Assembly (NCBI GenBank): GCA_003265895.1
Contig: QFBS01000001.1
Location: 124,001-188,000, forward strand
Direction of reading: 5' to 3'
Origin: Candidatus Marinamargulisbacteria bacterium SCGC AG-410-N11
Lineage (GTDB): Bacteria > Margulisbacteria > Marinamargulisbacteria > GCA-2716485 > AG-410-N11
Length of the DNA stretch: 64,000 nucleotides
Shown here: piece after piece, positions 4,632 to 39,187 of the stretch
How the letters are laid out: each line of letters starts with the position of its first letter
Numbering within the stretch: the stretch's first letter is position 1
Translations under genes and position numbers: made by a program
Notes under the pieces: model-generated
What the model was told of the DNA's origin: nothing
What the model saw: the letters and a program-made list of their open reading frames with translations, nothing else
Databases searched by the model: none

Positions 4632-4868
4632 ATGAGCAAAAAAAATAAATCAAAATACGGCGATGTTTCAAAGTACTTGTCTTTAATAGCTAAGATTAGT
4701 ACGTATATGGTAAGTTCTATTATTCTCTTTTTTATGGTAGGTTTATACCTTGATAAAAAATTACATTCAAAGGGTATATTTATGATACTAGGTGTATTTA
4801 TAGGACTAGGTTTTGGTTTTTTCTTTGTATACAAACAAATTATGAAGTTAGATAGTGAAGATAAATAA
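4632..4868 (+). CDS. atpZ: AtpZ/AtpI-like small membrane protein of the ATP synthase operon
   Basis: 78 residues with two transmembrane helices (about 16-39 and 48-68) separated by a short charged loop, LDKKLHSKG. This two-helix hairpin with the GxxxDKKL-type turn is typical of the AtpZ/AtpI accessory family (COG5336), found at the head of atp operons. AtpZ with AtpI is reported to help c-ring assembly and Mg/Ca handling. It directly precedes an AtpI-like gene (4 bases apart). The antisense ORF on the other strand is a shadow. Confidence 0.75.
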   Translation: MSKKNKSKYGDVSKYLSLIAKISTYMVSSIILFFMVGLYLDKKLHSKGIFMILGVFIGLGFGFFFVYKQIMKLDSEDK

Positions 4869-4871
4869 CGG

Positions 4872-5279
4872 ATGTTTAAAAATAAACTACCAAAATCGTT
4901 AACATTAATTCAATATCATGTGGTTAAATGTGTCTTAATTGCATGGTGCTTTTTTTCTGTAGTTGCCTTATTTATCAATAAATTTTGGATTTTGTCTGCA
5001 TTATTAGGGGCTATTACGAGTTTTATTATTTTTAATCAATTAATGAATTCGCAATTTTCTATTTTACAAAATAAAAAAAATTCGTTATTCTTTATCCATT
5101 ATTTATCGAGATTAGCTATTTATGCAATTCCGATAATAATATTTTTTTGTTTTAAGGAAAAGTTAAATTTAATAGTAATCGTATTGTTTTTATTTAGTTT
5201 TCAAGTCAGTTACATTGTATTTGAATTAACTAAAAATATTAAAAGATATAAAAGGCGTAAATTAAAATGGAAGAATTAG
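4872..5279 (+). CDS. atpI: AtpI-like ATP synthase accessory membrane protein
   Basis: 135 residues with four predicted transmembrane helices (near 17-35, 38-60, 73-93, 97-113), then a basic tail ending KRYKRRKLKWKN. Size, topology and position directly before atpB match the AtpI/subunit I family, which assists assembly of the c ring and is not part of the final enzyme. Sequence conservation in this family is poor, so position carries much of the call. Its 3' end overlaps the atpB start by 13 bases. Confidence 0.7.
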   Translation: MFKNKLPKSLTLIQYHVVKCVLIAWCFFSVVALFINKFWILSALLGAITSFIIFNQLMNSQFSILQNKKNSLFFIHYLSRLAIYAIPIIIFFCFKEKLNLIVIVLFLFSFQVSYIVFELTKNIKRYKRRKLKWKN

Positions 5280-6121
5280 GAAAAGTTTCGTTAACAGAGT
5301 TTACTTTATTTGGTCAGGTGATTTCGGTAAACTTAACTACATTTGTTATGACTTGGGTTGTAATGGGGTTGTTTTTGCTTTTAGCTTGGATGGCAACTAG
5401 AAAGTTATCATTTATTCCAGGTAGAATTCAAAATATATTTGAGTTAATTTTTGACTTCCTCAAGGATATAACAGTAAGCACATTAGGGCAAAAAGATGGT
5501 ATGAAATATTACCCATTTATTCTTACATTATTTTTATTTATTTTATTATCGAACTGGATTGGGATTATACCTAATATTTTTAAAATATTAGGAACTTTTA
5601 TAGCCGTAATTCATAGTTTTTTTGGTGATACAGTTCAGATAACGATGCAAGGTTTAACAGGTATCGTTGCAACAGTACCGGAGACTATTTGGTACAGTGC
5701 TTTAATAAATGCGCCAGGTATAGAGGAGCCAACTAAATCTATTAATACAGATTTAGCATTAGCTATTATGGTTTTTCTAGCAGTACAAGCTTATGGAATT
5801 AAAAATAAAGGTGTAGTTAAATATATTCGTAATTTTGTAGATGATCCATTTCCAATGAAAGGACCACTGATTATTTTCTTTTTTATTAATCCTTTCTTTT
5901 ATCTTAATTTAATCGGAATGGTAGCTAATGTAGTGTCTCATTCATTTAGGTTGTTTGGTAATATTTTTGGCGGCGGAATGATTATTGTCATAGTATCTAG
6001 TTTATTAAATTACTTTTTAGTTCCAGTTGGATTGTTTGCATTTTTTGGATTGTTTGCAGGGCTTGTTCAAGCTTTTGTATTTGCAATGTTAGCTGTAACC
6101 TATATTCAACAACAACAATAG
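5267..6121 (+). CDS. atpB: F-type ATP synthase subunit a
   Basis: 284 residues, membrane. The essential stator arginine is in SHSFRLFGNIF, R228, which faces the c-ring carboxylates and drives ion release. Other family marks are FELIFDFLKDI near residue 58, SNWIGIIPN near 95 and the C-terminal LVQAFVFAMLAVTYIQ. The usual AGE/AGH after RLFGN is replaced by GGG (residues 235-237), and residues 105-165 form a longer than usual loop between helices. Together with the c subunits it forms the two ion half-channels. The overlap with atpI and the 9-base gap to c3 fit a single operon. Confidence 0.96.
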   Translation: MEELGKVSLTEFTLFGQVISVNLTTFVMTWVVMGLFLLLAWMATRKLSFIPGRIQNIFELIFDFLKDITVSTLGQKDGMKYYPFILTLFLFILLSNWIGIIPNIFKILGTFIAVIHSFFGDTVQITMQGLTGIVATVPETIWYSALINAPGIEEPTKSINTDLALAIMVFLAVQAYGIKNKGVVKYIRNFVDDPFPMKGPLIIFFFINPFFYLNLIGMVANVVSHSFRLFGNIFGGGMIIVIVSSLLNYFLVPVGLFAFFGLFAGLVQAFVFAMLAVTYIQQQQ

Positions 6122-6130
6122 GAGAATATC

Positions 6131-6838
6131 ATGGAATTTGTTAAGATTTGTGCGGTTTTAGGAAGTGGTTTTGCAATGGGCTTAGGGGCTATAGGGTCTG
6201 CTGTTGGAGAAGGTATGATTGCGATGAAGGCGGTTCAGTCACTAGGTCGTCAACCATCAGCTTCATCAAAAATAGTTAGGATAATGGTTATTTCTCAAGC
6301 AGTTACTGAAACAGCAGCTGTATTTGCTCTTGTTATTTCTTTATTATTAATGTTTAAATCTGGAGATTTTTCATATATCAAAGGATTTACATTCTTAGCT
6401 GCTGGGATTGCTGTGGGTTTTGGTTCCATAGGGGCAGGATTAGGTGCCGGTTTGCCCGGAAGCTCTGCAATGGAAGGTATTGGTAAGCAGCCAGAGAATT
6501 CGGATGTTTTAACAATCCAAATGATTATTGGCCAGGCAGTAACTCAGACATCAACAATTTTTGCTTTAACAGTAGCATTAATTTTGATAATGTTAGATCC
6601 AGAGCCGAGTAATCTTAAGGTGTTTGCTATATTAGGGGCAGGGTTTGCAATGGGATTTGGAGCCATTGGACCTGGTATTGGTGATGGATTAGTTGCAAAA
6701 CATGCTAATAAAGCAGTAGCAAGAAATCCAAAACATATGGGATTATTAACAAGAACTATGATTATTGGACAAGCCATTACAGAGACTACAGATATCTATG
6801 CAATGGTGGTATCATTAATCTTAATTTTTGTAGTATAA
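6131..6838 (+). CDS. Triple-hairpin ATP synthase c subunit (three fused c domains, middle one lacking the carboxylate)
   Basis: 235 residues made of three consecutive c-subunit hairpins, each with a glycine-rich helix 1, a polar loop (GRQP, GKQP, ARNP) and a helix 2. Hairpin 1 is about residues 1-78, hairpin 2 about 81-158 and hairpin 3 about 161-235. Helix 2 carries the ion-binding glutamate in hairpins 1 (E60) and 3 (E218), but hairpin 2 has glutamine, Q139 (CAG at 6545-6547). The helix-1 acidic residue follows the same pattern: E27, A106, D185. F-type bacteria normally have only the single-hairpin form. Here the triple form sits 9 bases after atpB and 31 before a standard atpE, so a mixed rotor ring is the natural inference. 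Known parallels are duplicated or triplicated V/A-type K subunits and the two-hairpin c1 of Acetobacterium woodii. No frameshift seen. Confidence 0.93.
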   Translation: MEFVKICAVLGSGFAMGLGAIGSAVGEGMIAMKAVQSLGRQPSASSKIVRIMVISQAVTETAAVFALVISLLLMFKSGDFSYIKGFTFLAAGIAVGFGSIGAGLGAGLPGSSAMEGIGKQPENSDVLTIQMIIGQAVTQTSTIFALTVALILIMLDPEPSNLKVFAILGAGFAMGFGAIGPGIGDGLVAKHANKAVARNPKHMGLLTRTMIIGQAITETTDIYAMVVSLILIFVV

Positions 6839-6869: not shown

Positions 6870-7121
6870 ATGGACGGAATTACAGGAGCTGAATTAATTA
6901 AAGGGTTAGCTTTTTTAGCTGCGGGGATATCAATGGGATTTGGAGCAGTAGGACCAGGTATTGGTGAAGGATTTGTTGGCGGTAAGGCATGCGAGTCAAT
7001 TGGAAAAAGACCAGATGAAGCTAACTTAATTACTAAAACAATGATTATTGGACAAGCTATTTCTGAGACAACAGGTATCTATGCACTAGTAGTTGCTTTG
7101 ATTTTAATATTTGTTGTTTAA
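6870..7121 (+). CDS. atpE: F-type ATP synthase subunit c (single hairpin)
   Basis: 83 residues, the usual size. Helix 1 is AAGISMGFGAVGPGIGEGF with an acidic E33, the loop is GKRP (residues 45-48), and helix 2 is MIIGQAISETTGIYALVVA with the ion-binding E66. It has a strong Shine-Dalgarno (TTAGGAGG, 9 bases before the ATG), better than that of the triple-c gene, which would suit a subunit needed in many copies. By hand alignment about 44 of 74 positions are identical to hairpin 3 of the upstream protein. Whether the coupling ion is H+ or Na+ cannot be settled: the E-T-T after the helix-2 acid resembles the sodium-type E-S-T, but the helix-1 glutamine of the classical Na+ site is a glutamate here. 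Confidence 0.97.
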   Translation: MDGITGAELIKGLAFLAAGISMGFGAVGPGIGEGFVGGKACESIGKRPDEANLITKTMIIGQAISETTGIYALVVALILIFVV

Positions 7122-7159: not shown

Positions 7160-7645
7160 GTGATTTCAATAAATTTATGGGAAATTAGCTTTCAGATAAT
7201 TAATTTTACAATTCTGTTATGGTTAATCAATAAATTTTTAGTAATACCAATGAATACTTTTTTAGATAAAAGGGCTAATAGTATTAAGGATGATATTGAA
7301 ACAGCCGAAGAGAATTTAAGAAAATCTGAAGATTTAGTAAAAGAAAATAAAGAACTATTAAAGCAGGCTAGATTAGAAGCTAAACAAATAAGAGAAACAA
7401 CTGAAAATGCATCAAAAAATGATCGAGTACAAATGCTAACACAGGCAAAAGAAGAGTCTAAACGTGTTTTAGAACAAGCTCAGAAAGAAATTGGATTAAG
7501 TGTAAGTCGAGCTAAAAAAGAGCTTTTATCCGAAATTGGAGATCTATCAGTTATGTTATCTGAACGCATTTTAAGCCGAACGATTAGTGAAAATGATAAG
7601 CAAACGTTCGTCAAAGAATCATTAAAAAAGTTGCCTCTATCATGA
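7160..7645 (+). CDS. atpF: F-type ATP synthase subunit b
   Basis: 161 residues. A single N-terminal membrane helix (about 8-28) is followed by a long charged coiled coil (about 35-140) rich in Lys and Glu, the peripheral stalk. It begins with GTG at 7160, preceded by TAGGAG at 5 bases spacing, and the next in-frame ATG would cut into the membrane helix. It overlaps the delta gene by 4 bases (ATGA). Only one b gene is seen, so the stalk is presumably a homodimer. Confidence 0.93.
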   Translation: MISINLWEISFQIINFTILLWLINKFLVIPMNTFLDKRANSIKDDIETAEENLRKSEDLVKENKELLKQARLEAKQIRETTENASKNDRVQMLTQAKEESKRVLEQAQKEIGLSVSRAKKELLSEIGDLSVMLSERILSRTISENDKQTFVKESLKKLPLS

Positions 7646-8175
7646 AAAAAGCAATTTTATCCAAACGATATGCTAAAGCTTATTTTGATTGTCTAGATGA
7701 AAGTAGTTATGAACAAGATATTCTAACTGCTCAGCGGATAATCAATCAGTTTACTTCAAATAAAGATTTTTTAATCTTTTTAAAACAAAGTAACGTTAAC
7801 TTTGATTCAAAAAAAGAAGTGGTTAGTAAAATTATTAAATCATTTGAAGGTAATCGATTAATGATAAATTTCTTTTTAGTATTAATTAAAAAAAATAGAT
7901 TAGATTTATTAAGTATTATATCTCAAGATTTCGATAAAATGATATTAGAAAAAAAGAATAGTATTAAAGTTACAGTCGAATCATCCTCCAACTTAGATAT
8001 AAATGAAAAGGAAAAAATTGAATCGTTTATAAAAAATGAATATAAAAAAGAATTGGTTATTAATTACACTCAAGACTCAAACATGTTAGCTGGATTTAAA
8101 GCAACTGTTGAGAACAGAAAATACATTTCAACGGTCGAAAATCTGTTAGAAAAATTTAAGTTGTCTTTAAATTAA
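7642..8175 (+). CDS. atpH: F-type ATP synthase subunit delta
   Basis: 177 residues. It starts with the family opening [12 protein letters not shown] and ends with the C-terminal block [22 protein letters not shown], corresponding to the usual G-x-x-I-x-I-x-D-x-x-x-D-x-S segment, here with N and K in place of the common acidic residues. It links the b stalk to the top of the F1 head. The start overlaps atpF by 4 bases. Poor conservation is normal for delta; position supports the call. Confidence 0.93.
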
Positions 8176-8194: not shown

Positions 8195-9706
8195 ATGAAA
8201 GTTAAACCTGAAGAAATAACATCTATTATCCAGAATGAAATTCGAAACTTTGAAATTAAAGTGGATGTTCAAGAAACTGGACAAGTATTACAGGTGGGAG
8301 ATGGAATTGCCAGAATTTATGGCTTAGAAAACGCAATGGCGGGAGAAATGATAAAATTTAGTAGCAATGTTTATGGAGTTGTTCTAAATTTAGAAGAAGA
8401 AAACGTCGGATGTGTTATTTTAGGTAATGGTGAGTCAATAAAAGAAGGCGATACTGTGGAACGAACAGGTCGAATTATGGATGTTCCTGTTGGTGATGAA
8501 TTACTTGGACGTGTCGTAGATCCACTTGGAAATCCCTTAGACGGTGCAGGGCCTATCGAAACAACAAAGAGAAAACCAATTGAACGAATTGCGGCTGGTG
8601 TATGTGATAGACAACCAGTTAAGGAACCACTTCAAACTGGTATTAAATGTATTGATACTATGATACCAATAGGTAGAGGACAAAGAGAGTTAATTATTGG
8701 AGATAGAAAAACAGGTAAAACAGCTATTGCAATAGATACCATTATAAATCAAAAAAATTCAGACGTAATTTGTGTTTATGTAGCAATTGGTCAAAAAAAG
8801 TCTACAGTATCTAAAGTAGTACAAACATTAAAAGATCATGGTGTAATGGACAAAACAATTATAGTTTCAGCAACAGCTTCAGATTCTGCTACATTACAGT
8901 ACTTAGCACCCTATTCTGGTTGTGCTTTCGGTGAAGAATTTATGGACAATGGAAAACATGTCTTAGTTATTTACGATGATTTATCAAAGCATGCTGTTGC
9001 GTACAGGCAGTTATCACTACTTTTAAGAAGACCACCTGGAAGAGAAGCTTATCCTGGGGATGTATTTTATTTACATTCTAGATTATTAGAACGAGCATTA
9101 AAATATTCTGATGAAAAAGGTGGTGGATCTTTAACTGCTTTGCCGATTATTGAAACACAAGCAGGCGATGTATCTGCATATATTCCAACTAACGTAATTT
9201 CAATTACAGATGGACAAATTTATTTGGAGTCTAATCTATTTAATGCTGGAATTAAACCTGCTGTAAATCCAGGGATATCTGTATCAAGGGTAGGTGGAAG
9301 CGCACAAATTAAGGCTACTAAAAAAGTATCTGGTAGATTAAGATTAGATTTATCTCAATATTGGGAAATTGAAGCTTTTTCTCAATTTGGTTCTGATTTA
9401 GATAAAGCGACAATAGCTCAACTTGAAAGAGGAAAGCGATTAATCGAAATTTTAAAACAAGATCAGTACAACCCTTTAAGAATTTCATTACAAATTGCAA
9501 TTGTTTATGCAACGGTTAACGGTCTACTTGATGAAGTACCAGTTAACAAAGTAAGTGAATTCGAAAAAGAGTTACAATCAATATTATCAACACAGTATTC
9601 TGATATTTTAACGAAAATTGAAACAGAAAAAGAATTATCTAAAGAAATAACTGAAAAATTAGATAAAGCGATATCAGATTGTCAAAAACTATTTATTGAG
9701 AACTAA
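8195..9706 (+). CDS. atpA: F-type ATP synthase subunit alpha
   Basis: 503 residues, standard length. The P-loop is GDRKTGKTA (around residues 169-177), followed by the alpha-specific block [15 protein letters not shown]. The family segment [20 protein letters not shown] is present near 355-375. Alpha carries the non-catalytic nucleotide sites of the F1 head. The Shine-Dalgarno is GAAGGG before the ATG. It lies between delta and gamma in the canonical order. Confidence 0.98.
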
Positions 9707-9712
9707 TTTACG

Positions 9713-10570
9713 ATGTCTAAATTAAAAGAATTTAAAGTAAGAATTGATTCAGTTAAAAAAACACGTAAAATGACGCAAGCCATGAAGATGGTTGCTGCTG
9801 CTAAATTTAAAAGAGCTTCTGAAAAAGCTATAAAATTTAGATCATATCAAAGTCATTTTGAAGATCTTGTAAAATTGGTTCAAAAGAGTGATATTGATTT
9901 ACCCATACTAAAAAAGAATTCGAGCAAAAATCCACTTAACATTGCTATTGTAATTTCAAGTGATAGAGGTTTATGTGGCGGCTTTAATTCTAATGTTCTT
10001 AAGTTTGCATTTAATAAACTAAATGGTAACACTAAAACAGATTTATATATTTATGGTAGAAAAGCAATTCAATTTTTTAAAACAAAGCCATGGCCAATTC
10101 AAAAAAAAGAAGAAGGTTTTACAGGTAGATTAACACTCGAAAATATCAAAAAAGAATTAGAACCGTTAGTTGATAAATATATAGCTGGAGAAATTAATTC
10201 AATCAAAATTTATTATAATGAATTTGGAACTGCTCTATCTAGTAAATTAATGGAAAAACAAATATTGCCAATTGAAAATTCAGATACTGATAGTGTTAAT
10301 TTAGAAAAGGATGATTTCTTTTTAGAACCATCTCCGGAAGCAATTAGTAAAAAAGTTGTAAATGAGTATTTAGTTAATACATTATATTCTGCTTTTTTAG
10401 AAAGTAATGCAGCTGAACAAGGTGCTAGAATGGCAGCAATGGATTCTGCTACAAATAATGCAGGTGAGATGATTCAAGCATTAACCCTATTATATAATCG
10501 ACAACGGCAAGCAATAATTACAACAGAATTATCTGAAATTGTTGCTGGTGGTGAGGCATTATTACAATAA
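9713..10570 (+). CDS. atpG: F-type ATP synthase subunit gamma
   Basis: 285 residues. The N-terminal rotor helix is KEFKVRIDSVKKTRKMTQAM, then AAKFKRA; the middle has the conserved SSDRGLCGGFNSNV; the C-terminal helix has ARMAAMDSATNNAGEMI and LYNRQRQAIITTEL-EIVAG. These are the two coiled-coil ends of the central shaft and the Rossmann-like middle. It starts 6 bases after atpA. Confidence 0.97.
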   Translation: MSKLKEFKVRIDSVKKTRKMTQAMKMVAAAKFKRASEKAIKFRSYQSHFEDLVKLVQKSDIDLPILKKNSSKNPLNIAIVISSDRGLCGGFNSNVLKFAFNKLNGNTKTDLYIYGRKAIQFFKTKPWPIQKKEEGFTGRLTLENIKKELEPLVDKYIAGEINSIKIYYNEFGTALSSKLMEKQILPIENSDTDSVNLEKDDFFLEPSPEAISKKVVNEYLVNTLYSAFLESNAAEQGARMAAMDSATNNAGEMIQALTLLYNRQRQAIITTELSEIVAGGEALLQ

Positions 10571-10576
10571 AATTAA

Positions 10577-12389
<1,813 letters not shown>

Positions 12390-12398
<9 letters not shown>

Positions 12399-31463: not shown

Positions 31464-32942
31464 ATGTTATCATTTATTAGAAATAATGTAGCTTTAATTG
31501 GTTGGATTATAATTATTTTTTTCAGTGGCACTTTATTTACAACAAGTGTTTTTTTTGGGAAAAATTACAATGAAAATAAAGAAAGTAAGAATATTTCTGA
31601 ACTATTAACGCAGTCTGCAGCAACTTATGGAAATAAAGTATTTATTAGTAATCAACAATTTAGATCAATTGTAAATTATTACGATAATCAAAGAAATAAA
31701 ATGCATCCTCAAAATATCGAGTTAGCTAAATATCAACAATTTTTAGCTCTATCAAATCAAGCTATTATCCAATCATTTGCTCGAGAATCAGATTATAAAA
31801 TTAATCAAAAAGAAATTGATGTAGAATTAGATCAAATTCTTATTAGCCAAAATTTAAAAGACAAGAAAGAACTTAAATCAAAATTAAAAGAAAACAATAT
31901 CCAATATAAGCAATTTATAAATTCAATAAAAAATTCAATAAAACAAGATAAGTTTATTGAAGATTTGCAATCTAACATACATGTGTCTAATAGTGATGTT
32001 GAAAATAAATATACTGAATTAAAAATAAGTCATATTCTATTAGAAGTTAATGATTCTAAGTTAGCACCATCGCAAAATATTTTAGCAAATGAGGTTTATA
32101 AAAAAGTAAGAAAAGGCGGGAACTTTTCTAAATTAGCCATTAAATATTCTGATGATCCAAGTGTGAAAAATAATAAAGGAAATTTAGGTTGGGTAAGTTA
32201 TGGTCAGACAGTGCCAGACTTTCAAGATGTAGCATATACATTAGAAGAAGATGAAGTATCAAAACCCTTTTTAACAGAGTTTGGTTATCACATTGTTAAA
32301 TTAAATAAAAAACGCTCAAAAGTAAAACCAAAAGATTTTAATTTAGAAAATGAAAAAGAAACTATGTTAAAAGAAAAGAAAGAGTTAGCTATTCAAGAGT
32401 TTTTAACTAAATTTGTTAAAAGTAATAAATTAGAAATATTTGATGATGAATTAAACGCAATTCATGCTAAAGTAAATCGGAATTTAGAATTAGCATTAGG
32501 TTTTTATCAAAAAATAATTTCTAAAAACCCAAATGACCCATTACCAAACTTTTATTTAGCTCAAATATTCTTATTTCAGAAAAAGAATGATTTAGCATTG
32601 CAAGAATTAGAAAAAGGAGATATTAAGGCCGAATTATCTCCAAATTTAGATTTTAAGGAAATACATTATGAATTATATAAAATTTATAAAAATAAGAAAT
32701 TAAAAGCCAACGCAATCAATCAATTAGATAAAATATATGCATTAACTGATAATGATATTAGTACATTAAAGGATTTAAAAGAAAAATACGATGATATGAA
32801 AAAAGATGATATGAAAAAAGAAATTGAAAAAAAGATAGTTGAAATTGAAACAAAATTAAAAGAAGAAAAAAAGAAAAAAGAAGTTAGTAACGCTGAAGAA
32901 GCTAAAAATAAAGAATTAATTTCAAAAAAAGTTGATGATTAA
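31464..32942 (+). CDS. Periplasmic parvulin peptidyl-prolyl isomerase with C-terminal TPR/coiled coil
   Basis: 492 residues. N-terminal signal anchor (about 10-30), a SurA-N-like helical chaperone region (about 45-185), then a parvulin domain at about 190-285 (ISHILLEVN, FSKLAIKYSDDPSVKNNKGNLGWVS, FGYHIVKL). After it come TPR-like helices (about 330-430) and a Lys/Glu-rich tail. It probably folds or chaperones outer-membrane or secreted proteins. Shine-Dalgarno GAAGGAG precedes the ATG. It follows ftsX by 27 bases. The tail holds a tandem 15-base duplication (32790-32819). Confidence 0.88.
   Translation: MLSFIRNNVALIGWIIIIFFSGTLFTTSVFFGKNYNENKESKNISELLTQSAATYGNKVFISNQQFRSIVNYYDNQRNKMHPQNIELAKYQQFLALSNQAIIQSFARESDYKINQKEIDVELDQILISQNLKDKKELKSKLKENNIQYKQFINSIKNSIKQDKFIEDLQSNIHVSNSDVENKYTELKISHILLEVNDSKLAPSQNILANEVYKKVRKGGNFSKLAIKYSDDPSVKNNKGNLGWVSYGQTVPDFQDVAYTLEEDEVSKPFLTEFGYHIVKLNKKRSKVKPKDFNLENEKETMLKEKKELAIQEFLTKFVKSNKLEIFDDELNAIHAKVNRNLELALGFYQKIISKNPNDPLPNFYLAQIFLFQKKNDLALQELEKGDIKAELSPNLDFKEIHYELYKIYKNKKLKANAINQLDKIYALTDNDISTLKDLKEKYDDMKKDDMKKEIEKKIVEIETKLKEEKKKKEVSNAEEAKNKELISKKVDD
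32790..32819 (+). repeat. Tandem 15-base in-frame repeat in the parvulin gene
   Basis: GATGATATGAAAAAA occurs twice back to back and encodes DDMKK twice. It is a small in-frame tandem duplication in a charged, likely disordered tail. Because it is a multiple of three, gain or loss of copies would keep the frame. Confidence 0.85.
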
Positions 32943-35900
32943 AATTTAATTGCAGTCCAACTTGTAATAGTTTGACTATCAGAAGACGAAATTTGATTAT
33001 CACTATTTAGTCCGGTACCCCAAACAGAACCATCTTGTTTTAGGATCAGGCTATGGTATTTACCTGTTGCAATTAATGTTGCATTATCAAATACTTTTAC
33101 CCAAGTAGTTTGATTAATAGTATTATTAGTACCTAGTTGCCCAGAATGGTTTTGACCAAATCCCCAAACTGAGCCATCTGATTTTATAGCTAGTGCATGA
33201 TTTGATCCAGCCGAAAAGTCGATAACATTATCTAATACCTTGGTCCAACTTAAAATCTTTTCAGAACCTAGCGGGTTACCTACAATCCATAGCGAGTTAT
33301 CTTTTAAAGCTAAACAAAAATATTTCCCTGAATCAATTCGTTGAACATCATTTAATACATTAGTCCATGTTTCTTGACGTTCTAAATCTTGAGTTCCTAG
33401 TTGACCATTTAAATTATCGCCAACCACCCATAAAGAGCCATCTTTTTTAAGAGCATAAGAATGCAAATGACCAAGTTTTACAGATTGAATATTTTCAAAC
33501 GATTTAGTCCAAATATCTTTATTTTCAGTAGAATTTAAACCTAATTGAAAGTTACTGTTTTGACCAATTGCATATAAATTACCGTTTTGATCAACGTACA
33601 TACTATGATAAAAACTACTATCAATCGTTTGAATATTAGATTTAACATATTTCCAATTAGGTTTCATATTATCAATAGCCGAGTTTACGTTATCATCTGT
33701 ATTACTCGGCGTGGAGTAACCAATTTGATCAAAGCGATTTTCACCACTTCCCCAAGCAATATTATTATTATCTATTAAATAAGTATGAAAATCAGAAGTC
33801 GTTATAAATTTAATATCATTACTGATTAATTGCCATTGCTTATCAACAATTAAATCACCAAGCTGTTTACTAGAAACTGTTCCGGAACCCCATAATTCTT
33901 GATTAGATTTTATGGTAAAGCTATTATTATAATCTGCAAAAATAGAGTTGATATAATTTGTGTAAAAATGAATAGGTTTTGATAGATTACCTGATGTATC
34001 AACCGTATAAATAGCATAATAATAGCCACTTTGATAATCTAGATTGTTATCTTCATAAATTAAATCATTTGAAATTAAATCTTTTGAATTAAGAATAATA
34101 TTAGATGGAATATTACCTGGAATATCTTTTGTTTTAGTAATAAGTGAATGGCTGAAATCACTATCTGAAGGATGATTCCAGTAAAGTGTTATTTTATCAT
34201 TATTAAAAATACCATGAAACATTGTTGGATTTTTTGGAGGCGTTTTATCTTCTGATTTGAAGGTATTAGTTAAAACCTTTTCCGAAATTAAATCATTTTT
34301 ATCTTTCGAATATAACATATAGTGATAGTTAGAGCCATTTAACTCAATAGTATCTACAAATGATTCATCAAGGCCCTCGTAAATAATAGTACCAGAAGGA
34401 TGAATAGAAAATATATCATTTATTTTTCGGCTAATAATAACAGAATTAAGGTCATTATCAGAGGGTAATGACCAACTCAAAATTAATTTATTATTATCTG
34501 TAACAGATACATTAAATATATTGGGTAATGAAGGTGGAATTTCATCTGTAGTAATAAAATTAGCTGTTGATATTTTAGAAAATATATTTTCATTTAAATC
34601 TTTTGTAAACAGTGAATAGTAATAAGTAGATCCATCAAAGAGAATTGTTGTATCGGTAAAGCTATCTTGATTTGTACTCGCAATTTGTATTCCATCAGTT
34701 ATACTATTAATTGGAAACTTTGAACGATTTATAAAGTTTTGAAAGGAATCAATCGTTGGATTTTTCCAAGTTAATTTAATGGAATTATCTAATTTAGATA
34801 ATTTGAAATTAGTAAGGGGCTCTATTATTTTTAAACTAGATTTAATATTGATTTCTATAGAAGCTTGGTTAGATTCATTGCCATTAATATCTCTTACAAC
34901 CAAGGTATAATTAAACGTAGATCCATTCTTTTCATTTTGGGAAACTTGAGTAATCAATTTGCCACTACTAATCGTCGTTAATTCGTTACTAGAATGATCA
35001 TTTTTTATAATTAATATATCTTTAATATCATCGTCCAATGGGTTAATCCAATTAACAGTTAATGTGCTTTCTGTTTCGCTAATCGGTGTTATCGAATATG
35101 TAATATTAGATACAGGATTTGGAGGTATACGATCTAAAGAAGTTACTTCATGATAAATTGGAGAAGAGTAGGCTAAATCGTTATTATAAGCGGTTAATTC
35201 ATATTCATATGTAATTTGAGAGTTACTGATGTTAGAGTCTTCATATTGTGATGGAGATAAAAGCCCATCAAAAATTGTAACAAAAGTATCATTATTCTGT
35301 TCTTTATTTTTTCGTTTAATTAAAATACCTTTAAGGTTTGTATCATTTGGGTTATTCCATTTAAGTATTATATTATCTTTATTTATTGAAGATTCAATAT
35401 TTGAAACAGAGTTTATTGACGATAAAGGTTGTTGTATTAAAAAGTTAATAGATGCTACTTCAGATTTATTATTAGCTAAGTCTTTCGAATAAATATAATA
35501 GTAGTAATGATTGTTGGTTGGAGCTAAGTCCTTAAAGCTTGATAGTGATCCATTATATATTGCTAAACTCTCATCAAAGGTACTCAAGGGTTGCAACGCT
35601 TTAAATAATAGTACCTTAGAAAAGTCATCAACAGGGTTATTCCATGTTAGTTCAATTGAACTTAATTTTAAATTATAGCTAAACAATGACGGCTTTTTTG
35701 GTGGATAAGTATCCGTTATTATTACTTTTTGTGAATATTTATCAAGTATTTTGGAATCATTATCAAGCATAAATAAGGTATAAATATAAGAAGAAAATAA
35801 CGTTACGTTTAAATCTTTAGCCATTAAAAGAGAATGATTGATTTTTTGACCATCTACTAGTGTATTGGGAGTAACTAACTTGTTTTCTAGCGACCTTCTT

Positions 35901-36178
35901 AATTCATAAGTAACTTTTTCGGAAGTTGGATTATCCCAACTAATAGTAGCAAACCCTTTATCTGATGAAATTGTAAATTCTTTAATATTTTGGGAAAAAT
36001 TAGAGTTCCCATTTGTTTTATTATCAGGTTGATCACTGGATGTATTTGTATTAGATACGTTGGAGCCTTGTTCTGAATCTGTTTTTCCAAGTTTAGAAGC
36101 TTTACCACAGCCAGTAATAAGAAAAATAACAAGAGATAAAGTAGTAATAAAAGCAAATAATTGATTATTAACTCTCAT
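32939..36178 (-). CDS. Large lipoprotein with FN3-like repeats and C-terminal RCC1-type propeller
   Basis: 1079 residues. Signal peptide with lipobox LITGC, lipidated cysteine C24, then a low-complexity Ser/Asn linker. Seven FN3-like modules follow, each marked by a W-x-x-P (ISWDNP, LTWNNP, LKWNNP, VNWINP, LTWKNP, LSWSLP, LYWNHP). From about residue 750 on there are several RCC1-type repeats of about 50 residues built on HSLxLKxDGSVWGxGxNxxxQLG, likely a partial seven-blade propeller. Probably a cell-surface adhesion or polymer-binding protein; function not assignable. Its stop shares TTAA with the convergent parvulin gene. Its size and repeats set it apart from the housekeeping neighbours. 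Confidence 0.88.
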   Translation of the reverse strand: MRVNNQLFAFITTLSLVIFLITGCGKASKLGKTDSEQGSNVSNTNTSSDQPDNKTNGNSNFSQNIKEFTISSDKGFATISWDNPTSEKVTYELRRSLENKLVTPNTLVDGQKINHSLLMAKDLNVTLFSSYIYTLFMLDNDSKILDKYSQKVIITDTYPPKKPSLFSYNLKLSSIELTWNNPVDDFSKVLLFKALQPLSTFDESLAIYNGSLSSFKDLAPTNNHYYYYIYSKDLANNKSEVASINFLIQQPLSSINSVSNIESSINKDNIILKWNNPNDTNLKGILIKRKNKEQNNDTFVTIFDGLLSPSQYEDSNISNSQITYEYELTAYNNDLAYSSPIYHEVTSLDRIPPNPVSNITYSITPISETESTLTVNWINPLDDDIKDILIIKNDHSSNELTTISSGKLITQVSQNEKNGSTFNYTLVVRDINGNESNQASIEINIKSSLKIIEPLTNFKLSKLDNSIKLTWKNPTIDSFQNFINRSKFPINSITDGIQIASTNQDSFTDTTILFDGSTYYYSLFTKDLNENIFSKISTANFITTDEIPPSLPNIFNVSVTDNNKLILSWSLPSDNDLNSVIISRKINDIFSIHPSGTIIYEGLDESFVDTIELNGSNYHYMLYSKDKNDLISEKVLTNTFKSEDKTPPKNPTMFHGIFNNDKITLYWNHPSDSDFSHSLITKTKDIPGNIPSNIILNSKDLISNDLIYEDNNLDYQSGYYYAIYTVDTSGNLSKPIHFYTNYINSIFADYNNSFTIKSNQELWGSGTVSSKQLGDLIVDKQWQLISNDIKFITTSDFHTYLIDNNNIAWGSGENRFDQIGYSTPSNTDDNVNSAIDNMKPNWKYVKSNIQTIDSSFYHSMYVDQNGNLYAIGQNSNFQLGLNSTENKDIWTKSFENIQSVKLGHLHSYALKKDGSLWVVGDNLNGQLGTQDLERQETWTNVLNDVQRIDSGKYFCLALKDNSLWIVGNPLGSEKILSWTKVLDNVIDFSAGSNHALAIKSDGSVWGFGQNHSGQLGTNNTINQTTWVKVFDNATLIATGKYHSLILKQDGSVWGTGLNSDNQISSSDSQTITSWTAIKF

Positions 36179-36991: not shown

Positions 36992-39187
36992 TTACATTTC
37001 TGAAAGAATAGCATTAGAATGCGAGAGCCTATCAGATAATAGACATGCTACAAACTTATGAAATATAGCTGCAATATTTGGATGTTCAATTTTCATTTTC
37101 TCTAAATTAGATGCACTAAGAATGTAAAAAGAGCAATCTGTATCAGATCGAAAAGAAGCAGATCTAATTTCGTTTCTATAGACACCCATCTCACCCACTA
37201 CGCTACCTTCCTCTACTTTTGCTAATCGTTTTGTTTTACCGTCAATAAGTTCTAAATAAATAGAAGCTTGTCCTTTTTCTAAAATATAAATACAGTCTGA
37301 AGCATCTCCTTGATGAAATAACCATTCATCTTTTTGACAATTTCGTTTTTCTAAATAATTTTGAAATTGGTTTACAACATTCTGATCCGAGAACCAAAAC
37401 ATTAATCTATCATTTATGGTTTGAGGTTTTAAACTTTCTGAGTTTATTTCATTTAAAAGCTCATTTTCACAATGCTCTAAACTTAAGTCTAAGTCAGAAT
37501 AAAAATCATATGAATCACTAGGAATTGATTGATTAATTGCTCCAGAGTTTTGAAAGTGACCTTTGATAGAGTCACTCATATTTGAAAATAAGAGCTTAGA
37601 ATTATATGTATTATTTAATTTAATTATTTTAGATAAACTATGAAATGCTGATGAGTCTAATCCGTTTACTAATTTAAAGTCTAAAATGATATGAGTAGGA
37701 GTAACTAATGATGTATCTGTAATCCTTTTCTTGATCGTTTGATAAAGACCATGAGCAGTACCAAAGAAAATATAACCTTGAAGAACGATAATATAAGTTT
37801 TGTTTCCATGTTCGGAAAGAATATCTTGTTTATCTAAACTTCGAGCTACATTACTTCGTTTTGAGCTACCTGAAAAAATATGCTTAACAATACTAATTCT
37901 CATATATTGAATAACAAATAATAGCGCAGATAATACTAAACCTAATAATACGCCATATAAGAAGTTTGAGAAAATAATCGTTATAAAAATAAGTAAAATA
38001 ATACAATATTCAATTAAGTTTAAACGAAACCAAGATGAAAATAACCATTCAATCATAAGGCCAAAGCCAAAGAACATTAATAAGCCTCCTAGTATTGGCT
38101 TAGGAAAAAAGCTAACAACTTCAGATATCGAAAGGATAGCAACCAGTAAACAAATAAGTACACAAATCAGTCCTCCTAAACGTGAACGTGAACCTGATTG
38201 AAAATTTATTTTGGTAAAGGGTAATGAATGATGAGCAACCACACAACACATTAAACCACTAAAAATATTTCCTATGCCAGACCACTTAAGGTCTTTATCT
38301 AAATCAATTTCAGTATCTACAGCAGATTCAACCCCAGCTATAGTTAATAAAATAGAAATGATAGTAACTGCCAAAATAACTAGTATTGTGCTAAAGTTTG
38401 AAAGTAAAATATCCCATCTAACATTAGAAAAATTTAGATGATTCGTCCAAACTTCATTATTAGAAAAAGACGACATTACCCAACCTAAATTAGCTGCATC
38501 AATATTTTGAAAATCTGCATAATAAAAAAAACCATAAAATCCAGCAATTGCAACAATAATAGAAACTGGTAGGAATAAATAATGTTTAATATAGCGACTT
38601 AAAATAATAAGAATAAGAGCAAATATAACGCCAGGAATAACATGTTGAAGAGTTGCAGGGTTAAAAAGACCGTCAAATTGATTTTCAATTGGTAATGAAG
38701 TTCTTCTCATAACATTTATAGACCCTGAAACTAACAGCCATCCAACGCTAGCTAAAAAGCCACCCATAACTGGATAGGGGATAAATCGGCCAAGTTTCCC
38801 TAACTTAAAAGTTCCCATTAAATAAAAAATAACACCTGTAATTAATGAAATTAAAAATATCGACATTAGAACAGTAGGAAGAATATCATCTACAGGTATA
38901 TTGGTACTTACAATTTTTTGAGCTAATACAGCAATAAGCGCAGCAGGTACAATTGCTGCTGTTGAAATTGTACTAGTATAAGTACCTCCTATTAAAAGTA
39001 ATAGACCTACAATAATAGAGGATAAAAAAGTTAATGCTAACCCAGTAGGAAAAGCCGCTGAAAGTTTATCTCCTGAAAAAATAAACGTTGCTACGCAAAT
39101 ATTAATAGAAATAGTTAATACAGCAGTAATTATACCCGATGTTACATTGCTGAAAATTGAATGTATTCTTTTTGATTCCCCACTCAT
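36992..39187 (-). CDS. SulP-family anion transporter with STAS and cyclic-nucleotide-binding domains
   Basis: 731 residues. About 10-12 membrane helices (residues 15-430) with SulP features, then a STAS domain (about 465-560) with GLDSSAFHSL, the site that is phosphorylated in anti-sigma antagonists. A cNMP-binding domain (about 600-720) follows, including the cassette GEMGVYRNEIRSASF with its glutamate and arginine. The substrate could be sulfate, bicarbonate or another anion. The cNMP domain suggests gating by cAMP or a related messenger. Strong Shine-Dalgarno AAGGAG. It is followed by the MBL hydrolase. Confidence 0.9.
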   Translation of the reverse strand: MSGESKRIHSIFSNVTSGIITAVLTISINICVATFIFSGDKLSAAFPTGLALTFLSSIIVGLLLLIGGTYTSTISTAAIVPAALIAVLAQKIVSTNIPVDDILPTVLMSIFLISLITGVIFYLMGTFKLGKLGRFIPYPVMGGFLASVGWLLVSGSINVMRRTSLPIENQFDGLFNPATLQHVIPGVIFALILIILSRYIKHYLFLPVSIIVAIAGFYGFFYYADFQNIDAANLGWVMSSFSNNEVWTNHLNFSNVRWDILLSNFSTILVILAVTIISILLTIAGVESAVDTEIDLDKDLKWSGIGNIFSGLMCCVVAHHSLPFTKINFQSGSRSRLGGLICVLICLLVAILSISEVVSFFPKPILGGLLMFFGFGLMIEWLFSSWFRLNLIEYCIILLIFITIIFSNFLYGVLLGLVLSALLFVIQYMRISIVKHIFSGSSKRSNVARSLDKQDILSEHGNKTYIIVLQGYIFFGTAHGLYQTIKKRITDTSLVTPTHIILDFKLVNGLDSSAFHSLSKIIKLNNTYNSKLLFSNMSDSIKGHFQNSGAINQSIPSDSYDFYSDLDLSLEHCENELLNEINSESLKPQTINDRLMFWFSDQNVVNQFQNYLEKRNCQKDEWLFHQGDASDCIYILEKGQASIYLELIDGKTKRLAKVEEGSVVGEMGVYRNEIRSASFRSDTDCSFYILSASNLEKMKIEHPNIAAIFHKFVACLLSDRLSHSNAILSEM

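Follow-up and report, generated by a model that had tools for sequence, protein, structure and literature searches.

The number of ion-binding sites in the c ring of a rotary ATPase sets the cost of ATP. The c1 subunit of Acetobacterium woodii, a protein of two fused hairpins, reportedly forms part of an F/V-hybrid c ring (PDB 4bem, said to be the work of Matthies in 2014), and a survey by Brandt and Mueller in 2015 is said to have listed a dozen anaerobic species with one F-type and one V-type c gene in the operon. The c1 of C. aceticum shows the same order of Glu then Gln as that of A. woodii, and its enzyme has been re-examined as a Na+-dependent ATP synthase (PMC7911925). Double-hairpin hybrid rotors of the F type are already known; F-type forms with three to six hairpins extend this kind. 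One of them is described here: within a 64,000-nucleotide stretch of the genome of Candidatus Marinamargulisbacteria bacterium SCGC AG-410-N11 (the whole of which is termed the window), an F-type atp operon encodes a single protein of three fused c hairpins (termed the triple) directly ahead of a monomeric c subunit, atpE. The triple probably serves as a structural subunit in the rotor of a Na+-coupled F1Fo ATP synthase, where it would share a mixed ring with atpE and would thereby lower the number of Na+ spent per ATP.

The gene is an intact open reading frame (ORF) of 235 codons, beginning with ATG and preceded by AGGAGA; three separate stretches of its frame match PF00137 over the cut-off, as does atpE with a fourth. 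According to Pfam and NCBIfam profiles, it is surrounded by an ordinary F1Fo gene set that includes delta (Table 1). These results bear out what an earlier note on this DNA had described, namely three fused c hairpins in one frame, within an F-type operon and directly before atpE; the helix-2 residues that it gave (E60, Q139 and E218) read exactly so in the translated ORF. That note missed two features: the site-less hairpin also lacks the helix-1 acid, and interface residues co-vary with the next hairpin. In an AlphaFold2 model the triple forms three consecutive hairpins (predicted local distance difference test, pLDDT, 93.6; predicted template modelling score, pTM, 0.86), and its top PDB match, both by sequence (E 5e-25) and by fold, is A. 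woodii c1 (4bem_J), in agreement with the likeness in kind to Acetobacterium c1 that had been pointed out. Two other identities were rejected: that of an N-ATPase, because delta is present and the gene order is standard rather than the delta-less atpDCQRBEFAG; and that of a V/A-type ATPase, because an F-type beta (TIGR01039), delta, b and a are all present.

By sequence, the locus has in common with the A. woodii hybrid rotor the pairing of a multi-hairpin with a monomer c gene inside a single F1Fo operon, a carboxylate-free hairpin and the Na+ ligand set; in both fused proteins hairpin 1 is acidic and hairpin 2 has Gln. A. woodii c1 differs in having two hairpins rather than the three to six found here, in having Gln rather than Glu as its helix-1 residue, and in being known from anaerobic acetogens, whereas the Marinamargulisbacteria lineage mostly has a haem-copper oxidase. 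Neither the count of exactly two hairpins nor common descent with c1 applies to the triple: in a hairpin tree, A. woodii c1 groups with A. woodii c2 and not with the relatives of the triple (support 100/98), so that a shared origin is unsupported, weakly so inasmuch as the alignment is short (75 columns and 132 rows, bootstrap unconverged). Because of this grouping, the A. woodii duplication looks independent, and fusion with acid loss seems to have arisen more than once. Middle hairpins from different phyla group together (99/89), but shared Gln, Pro and Phe residues may draw them together; a single origin of all multi-hairpin proteins is left undecided.

Other described rotors resemble the triple in part. 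More than two hairpins within one rotor protein occur in the triple c subunit of Methanocaldococcus and the 13-hairpin c subunit of Methanopyrus (PMC2359735); these, however, belong to archaeal A-type enzymes, whereas the present operon is bacterial, of F type, and contains both delta and a separate monomer, and in Methanopyrus all 13 hairpins retain their ligands. In the V-ATPase c/K subunit (Enterococcus hirae NtpK, PDB 2bl2), as here, site-less hairpins alternate with sites and consecutive hairpins share a site, but the operon is of V type and the acid, E139, lies in hairpin 2 rather than in hairpin 1. The c ring of Fusobacterium nucleatum (PDB 3zk1) has the same two-carboxylate Na+ site as the monomer here (helix-1 Glu, helix-2 Glu, and Ser/Thr, Thr and Tyr), yet it is homomeric and built from single hairpins. 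Full-text searches, whose scope did not take in the species table of the 2015 survey, found no literature report of F-type c proteins with at least three hairpins.

The distribution of such proteins was explored with a query based on the triple, so that the counts given here and below are taken over related proteins, most of them from metagenome-assembled genomes (MAGs). Among 74 genomes, covering close relatives and the whole phylum, the triple occurs in 14 Margulisbacteria genomes, including that of the window, and a double hairpin in 2 more; its close named relatives are Candidatus Marinamargulisbacteria and UBP8 MAGs. In every Margulisbacteria carrier the fused gene stands between atpB and atpE (gene order a-cN-c1-b), and in 14 of 14 triples hairpin 2 has Gln. 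An artefact, whereby assembly had joined three genes, was named by the earlier note as something that would refute it; this can be set aside as having a negligible chance, because 13 other genomes of the phylum hold an intact triple in the same operon position, because the same intact ORF appears in independent assemblies from many genera, and because isolate genomes of Desulfobacterota carry forms with three to five hairpins. In two genomes from another class of the phylum (G028 and G036), a further c gene is present and hairpin 3 of the triple has lost its acid as well.

Beyond the phylum, a scan of species genomes confirmed at least 364 loci with a c-like match, of which 80 were kept. Among the matches listed, those outside Margulisbacteria comprise 23 three-, 36 four-, 7 five- and 3 six-hairpin proteins, each adjoining a monomer; their hosts, isolates included, are mainly Desulfobacterota, together with Cloacimonadota, Planctomycetota and others. 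Of 118 Desulfobacterota genomes drawn evenly, 9 (the centre included) carry a multi-hairpin c protein; the Desulfobacterota carriers may overlap with the species that Brandt and Mueller surveyed. The search for triple-hairpin F-type c genes that the earlier note had proposed thus yielded many relatives and the hairpin tree discussed above, and its view of a triple beside a monomer as unusual for an F-type operon needs adjusting: the arrangement is there, but it is no singleton, since it is kept across the lineage and forms with three to six hairpins occur in several phyla. For one of the six-hairpin proteins, structure prediction gives six hairpins (pLDDT 87.4, pTM 0.87). Two six-hairpin F-type proteins (L080:6187-7647 and L104:7992-9443) have an acid in hairpin 1 only, followed by five neutral hairpins in succession. 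Three-hairpin proteins at three loci (L043:7947-8705, L083:7767-8720 and L088:4024-4773) are acid-free (Ser, Gln, Gln) and adjoin a Na+-type monomer; both chromosomes checked from this group have further c genes elsewhere.

The hairpins of these proteins obey three rules. The first concerns position: 82 of 88 proteins have an acidic hairpin 1, while 129 of 142 internal hairpins have Gln at the helix-2 acid position. The second links the two acids: wherever the helix-2 acid has been lost, the helix-1 acid has been lost too (169/169 hairpins); where it is present, the helix-1 acid is kept in 139 hairpins and absent from 15 (of 154). Because random drift following one loss is not expected to give 169 out of 169, the paired loss seems to reflect selection for complete neutrality of the spacer. 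The neutral hairpin itself appears to be under purifying selection comparable to that on its neighbours: its ratio of nonsynonymous to synonymous substitution rates (dN/dS) is about 0.007-0.012 between close relatives, within the values spanned by its two flanking hairpins and the monomer, and 0.065 between the window and genome G004, although several pairs approach saturation at synonymous sites, which leaves only the low dN as safe.

Strong constraint on neutral hairpins would also fit a different role, in which the fused protein is a device for ring size or assembly: a single-copy nucleus that fixes the hairpin number or the contact between a and the ring, with neutral hairpins serving for docking or parking and any change in ions per ATP arising as a side effect. 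Such a role accords with the single gene copy, which invariably adjoins atpE and in almost all cases directly precedes it, and with the persistence of the acid-free units (L043, L083 and L088), which supply no sites; relatives, however, vary from three to six hairpins, which is unexpected for a nucleus of fixed size, and most triples keep two acids. It is accordingly a possible explanation but clearly the less likely one.

The third rule concerns neighbours. In the Na+ sites of E. hirae and I. tartaricus, one hairpin provides the acid and a Gln, and the other provides Thr64/Ser66 (PMC2359735). Among the related proteins, Tyr70 is found before none of 163 neutral next hairpins, as against 41 of 71 acidic ones; Tyr70 and Thr67 track the acidity of the next hairpin, a hairpin's own acid mattering weakly. 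Of 89 proteins, 87 carry Tyr in their last hairpin, among them 26 of the 28 in which that hairpin is neutral. The rule still holds when only middle hairpins are counted, and when the set is thinned to 25 proteins or to 14 (<50% identity; 4/0/5/27). It matches the geometry of known Na+ sites, in which one hairpin supplies the acid and the helix-1 ligand and its neighbour the hydroxyl. The fused unit would accordingly be followed by an acid-bearing subunit, as in a mixed ring; the interface pattern is the one to be expected if the unit sits in a ring ahead of such a subunit. It is also very improbable that the triple is instead a c-like protein with a regulatory or accessory role away from the rotor: the last hairpin of the fused proteins retains Thr67 and Tyr70 even when neutral, as expected ahead of an acid-bearing subunit, and successive c hairpins of the AlphaFold model match ring subunits. 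Incorporation into the rotor is thus supported indirectly, through patterns of residues; like it, the copy number, the use of Na+ rather than H+, the lowered ion-to-ATP ratio and the direction of operation are what we infer.

As a structural rotor subunit, the triple would assemble together with atpE monomers into a single mixed c ring. Each ion site there would lie between two neighbours, with the acids of hairpin n paired to Ser/Thr66, Thr67 and Tyr70 on hairpin n-1; at the end of the fused unit, its last hairpin would complete the site of the subunit that follows. One ion site each would come from hairpins 1 and 3 and from every monomer; hairpin 2, from which both acids of the two-carboxylate site are gone, would be a permanently neutral spacer. 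Each copy of the triple would then take away one ion per turn, and the Na+ cost per ATP would therefore be lower than the hairpin count of the ring suggests. The earlier note's statement that such a ring has fewer ion sites than hairpins accordingly holds provided that triple and monomer share one ring. In general, k triples and m monomers give 3k+m hairpins and 2k+m acids, and the cost becomes (2k+m)/3 rather than (3k+m)/3; for illustration, with hypothetical values of k and m, a ring of 11 hairpins would have 10 sites with one triple and 8 with three. A lower ion cost means more ATP per ion, yet it requires a larger gradient, which a respiring organism with Na+-NQR may possess. For A. woodii, which has one hybrid ring of this sort, 3.3 ions per ATP are quoted (PMC5662883).

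The sequences around the ring point to Na+. Monomers at hybrid loci have the two-carboxylate Na+ motif, and those outside Margulisbacteria have a helix-1 Glu in 72 of 73 cases and Gln in the remaining one. At loci of the phylum with a single c gene, c looks H+-type (Ile or Val at 32, mostly Glu-Ala, mostly no Thr at 67). The a subunits differ likewise around the stator arginine, reading RLFGNxxGG at hybrid loci versus mostly RLFANxxAGH at single-c loci of the phylum, a difference that may reflect adaptation either to neutral hairpins or to Na+. The genome of the window contains a complete nqrABCDEF operon and a haem-copper oxidase (COX1), both of which have been published for a Marinamargulisbacterium (PMC6349859); such an oxidase is usual in the triple-bearing lineage. 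The NqrB/RnfD family occurs in 11 of 13 class genomes with the triple versus 3 of 14 without it (p 0.002, uncorrected for kinship), a comparison weakened by relatedness and by genome incompleteness. As a Na+ source, oxaloacetate decarboxylase was rejected, none being found in the genome of the window and only one triple genome having it. Membrane pyrophosphatases are uninformative, since nearly every relative has them whether or not it carries the triple; one genome has two such genes with very different family scores (G000:C5:21725-23914 and G000:C50:28881-30875), as is common among relatives.

In the genome of the window (1.5 Mb, about 56% complete) four PF00137 hairpins in all were found, those of the triple and of atpE. 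Because eight class genomes that are 81-94% complete likewise yielded exactly four each, the fused-rotor enzyme is the only rotary ATPase detected in this lineage. Since the organism also has Na+-NQR and a haem-copper oxidase, the enzyme would most likely be mainly an ATP synthase fed by Na+-NQR respiration, the strong gradient making a low ion cost per ATP affordable. For these reasons the earlier note's leaning toward ATP hydrolysis or pumping is not upheld. The corresponding alternative, that fewer sites tune the enzyme for hydrolysis and for Na+ export at high membrane potential, as in V-ATPases, draws on the use of site-less hairpins by V-ATPase rings and on the additional c genes elsewhere in Desulfonema magnum (L061) and bin239 (L054), which leave the enzyme free for another task there; set against the lack of another PF00137 gene in those eight Marinamargulisbacteria genomes and the presence of Na+-NQR and oxidase (PMC6349859), it is unlikely.

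Several observations weigh against the triple as a Na+-binding rotor subunit of a respiratory synthase. (i) The Marinamargulisbacteria triple itself departs from the neighbour rule, in that hairpin 2 has S141 and F144 rather than Thr67 and Tyr70, though hairpin 3 is acidic. Near E218, D185 and D221 are kept in most Marinamargulisbacteria triples, an Asp replacing Gly68 of the ordinary site. Because of these residues in hairpins 2 and 3, the site of hairpin 3 looks atypical and may lack normal Na+ binding or have another ion preference. (ii) No match to NqrB/RnfD was found in the triple genomes G004 and G013, nor to COX1 in the triple genomes G005, G012 and G017. (iii) It cannot be taken for granted that a neutral hairpin is tolerated, because one E56Q hairpin in the fused c10 ring of Bacillus PS3 was enough to stop ATP synthesis altogether (Mitome 2004, cited in PMC8809890). 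Set against this last result, it is a tentative proposal, held at somewhat under even odds, that F-type rotors have evolved large neutral sectors beside Na+ monomers, made of fused units with one acid among six hairpins or with no acid, in which added neutral hairpins set the ion-to-ATP gear ratio and wide site-free arcs are crossed; the crossing of such arcs is not what the PS3 substitution would lead one to expect.

The spread of fused units beside a monomer over several phyla suggests that these motors have repeatedly altered the number of ions spent per ATP. It also provides a natural series, with three to six hairpins, zero to three sites and highly conserved adjoining monomers, in which to test how many neutral positions are tolerated and whether bacteria tune the ion-to-ATP ratio through rotor composition; culturable carriers include Desulfonema magnum, Desulfatibacillum alkenivorans and Desulfacinum. 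A marine lineage that seems to use oxygen for respiration is hereby added to the known hosts of hybrid F-type rotors.

Table 1. Genes of the atp operon and hairpins of the triple, in window positions.
Feature	Positions	Strand	Basis or remarks
Triple-hairpin c subunit, 235 aa, fused F-type proteolipid	6131..6838	+	three PF00137 stretches in one ORF
Hairpin 1: E27 (helix 1), E60 (helix 2), then T61 A62 .. F65	6131..6364	+	
Hairpin 2, site-less: A106 (helix 1), Q139 (helix 2), then T140 S141 .. F144	6365..6601	+	
Hairpin 3: D185 (helix 1), E218 (helix 2), then T219 T220 D221 .. Y223	6602..6835	+	
Monomeric atpE, 83 aa, Na+-type: E33, E66, T67, T68, Y71	6870..7121	+	PF00137
atpB, stator a subunit, conserved arginine in SFRLFGNIFGG	5267..6121	+	PF00119; a-subunit alignment
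ATPase_gene1 family small membrane protein	4632..4868	+	PF09527
AtpI-like protein	4872..5279	+	PF03899, E 7e-4, below Pfam cut-off
atpF, subunit b	7160..7645	+	PF00430
atpH, subunit delta	7642..8175	+	PF00213
atpA, subunit alpha	8195..9706	+	PF00006/PF00306
atpG, subunit gamma	9713..10570	+	ORF; named from operon position and sequence
atpD, F-type beta	10595..12007	+	TIGR01039 (equivalog), over cut-off
atpC, subunit epsilon	11997..12398	+	PF02823

Elsewhere in the window, on the minus strand, a 1079-residue protein contains RCC1-like repeats (32939-36178), and a single protein combines a SulP-type transporter with a STAS domain and a cyclic-nucleotide-binding domain (36992-39187).
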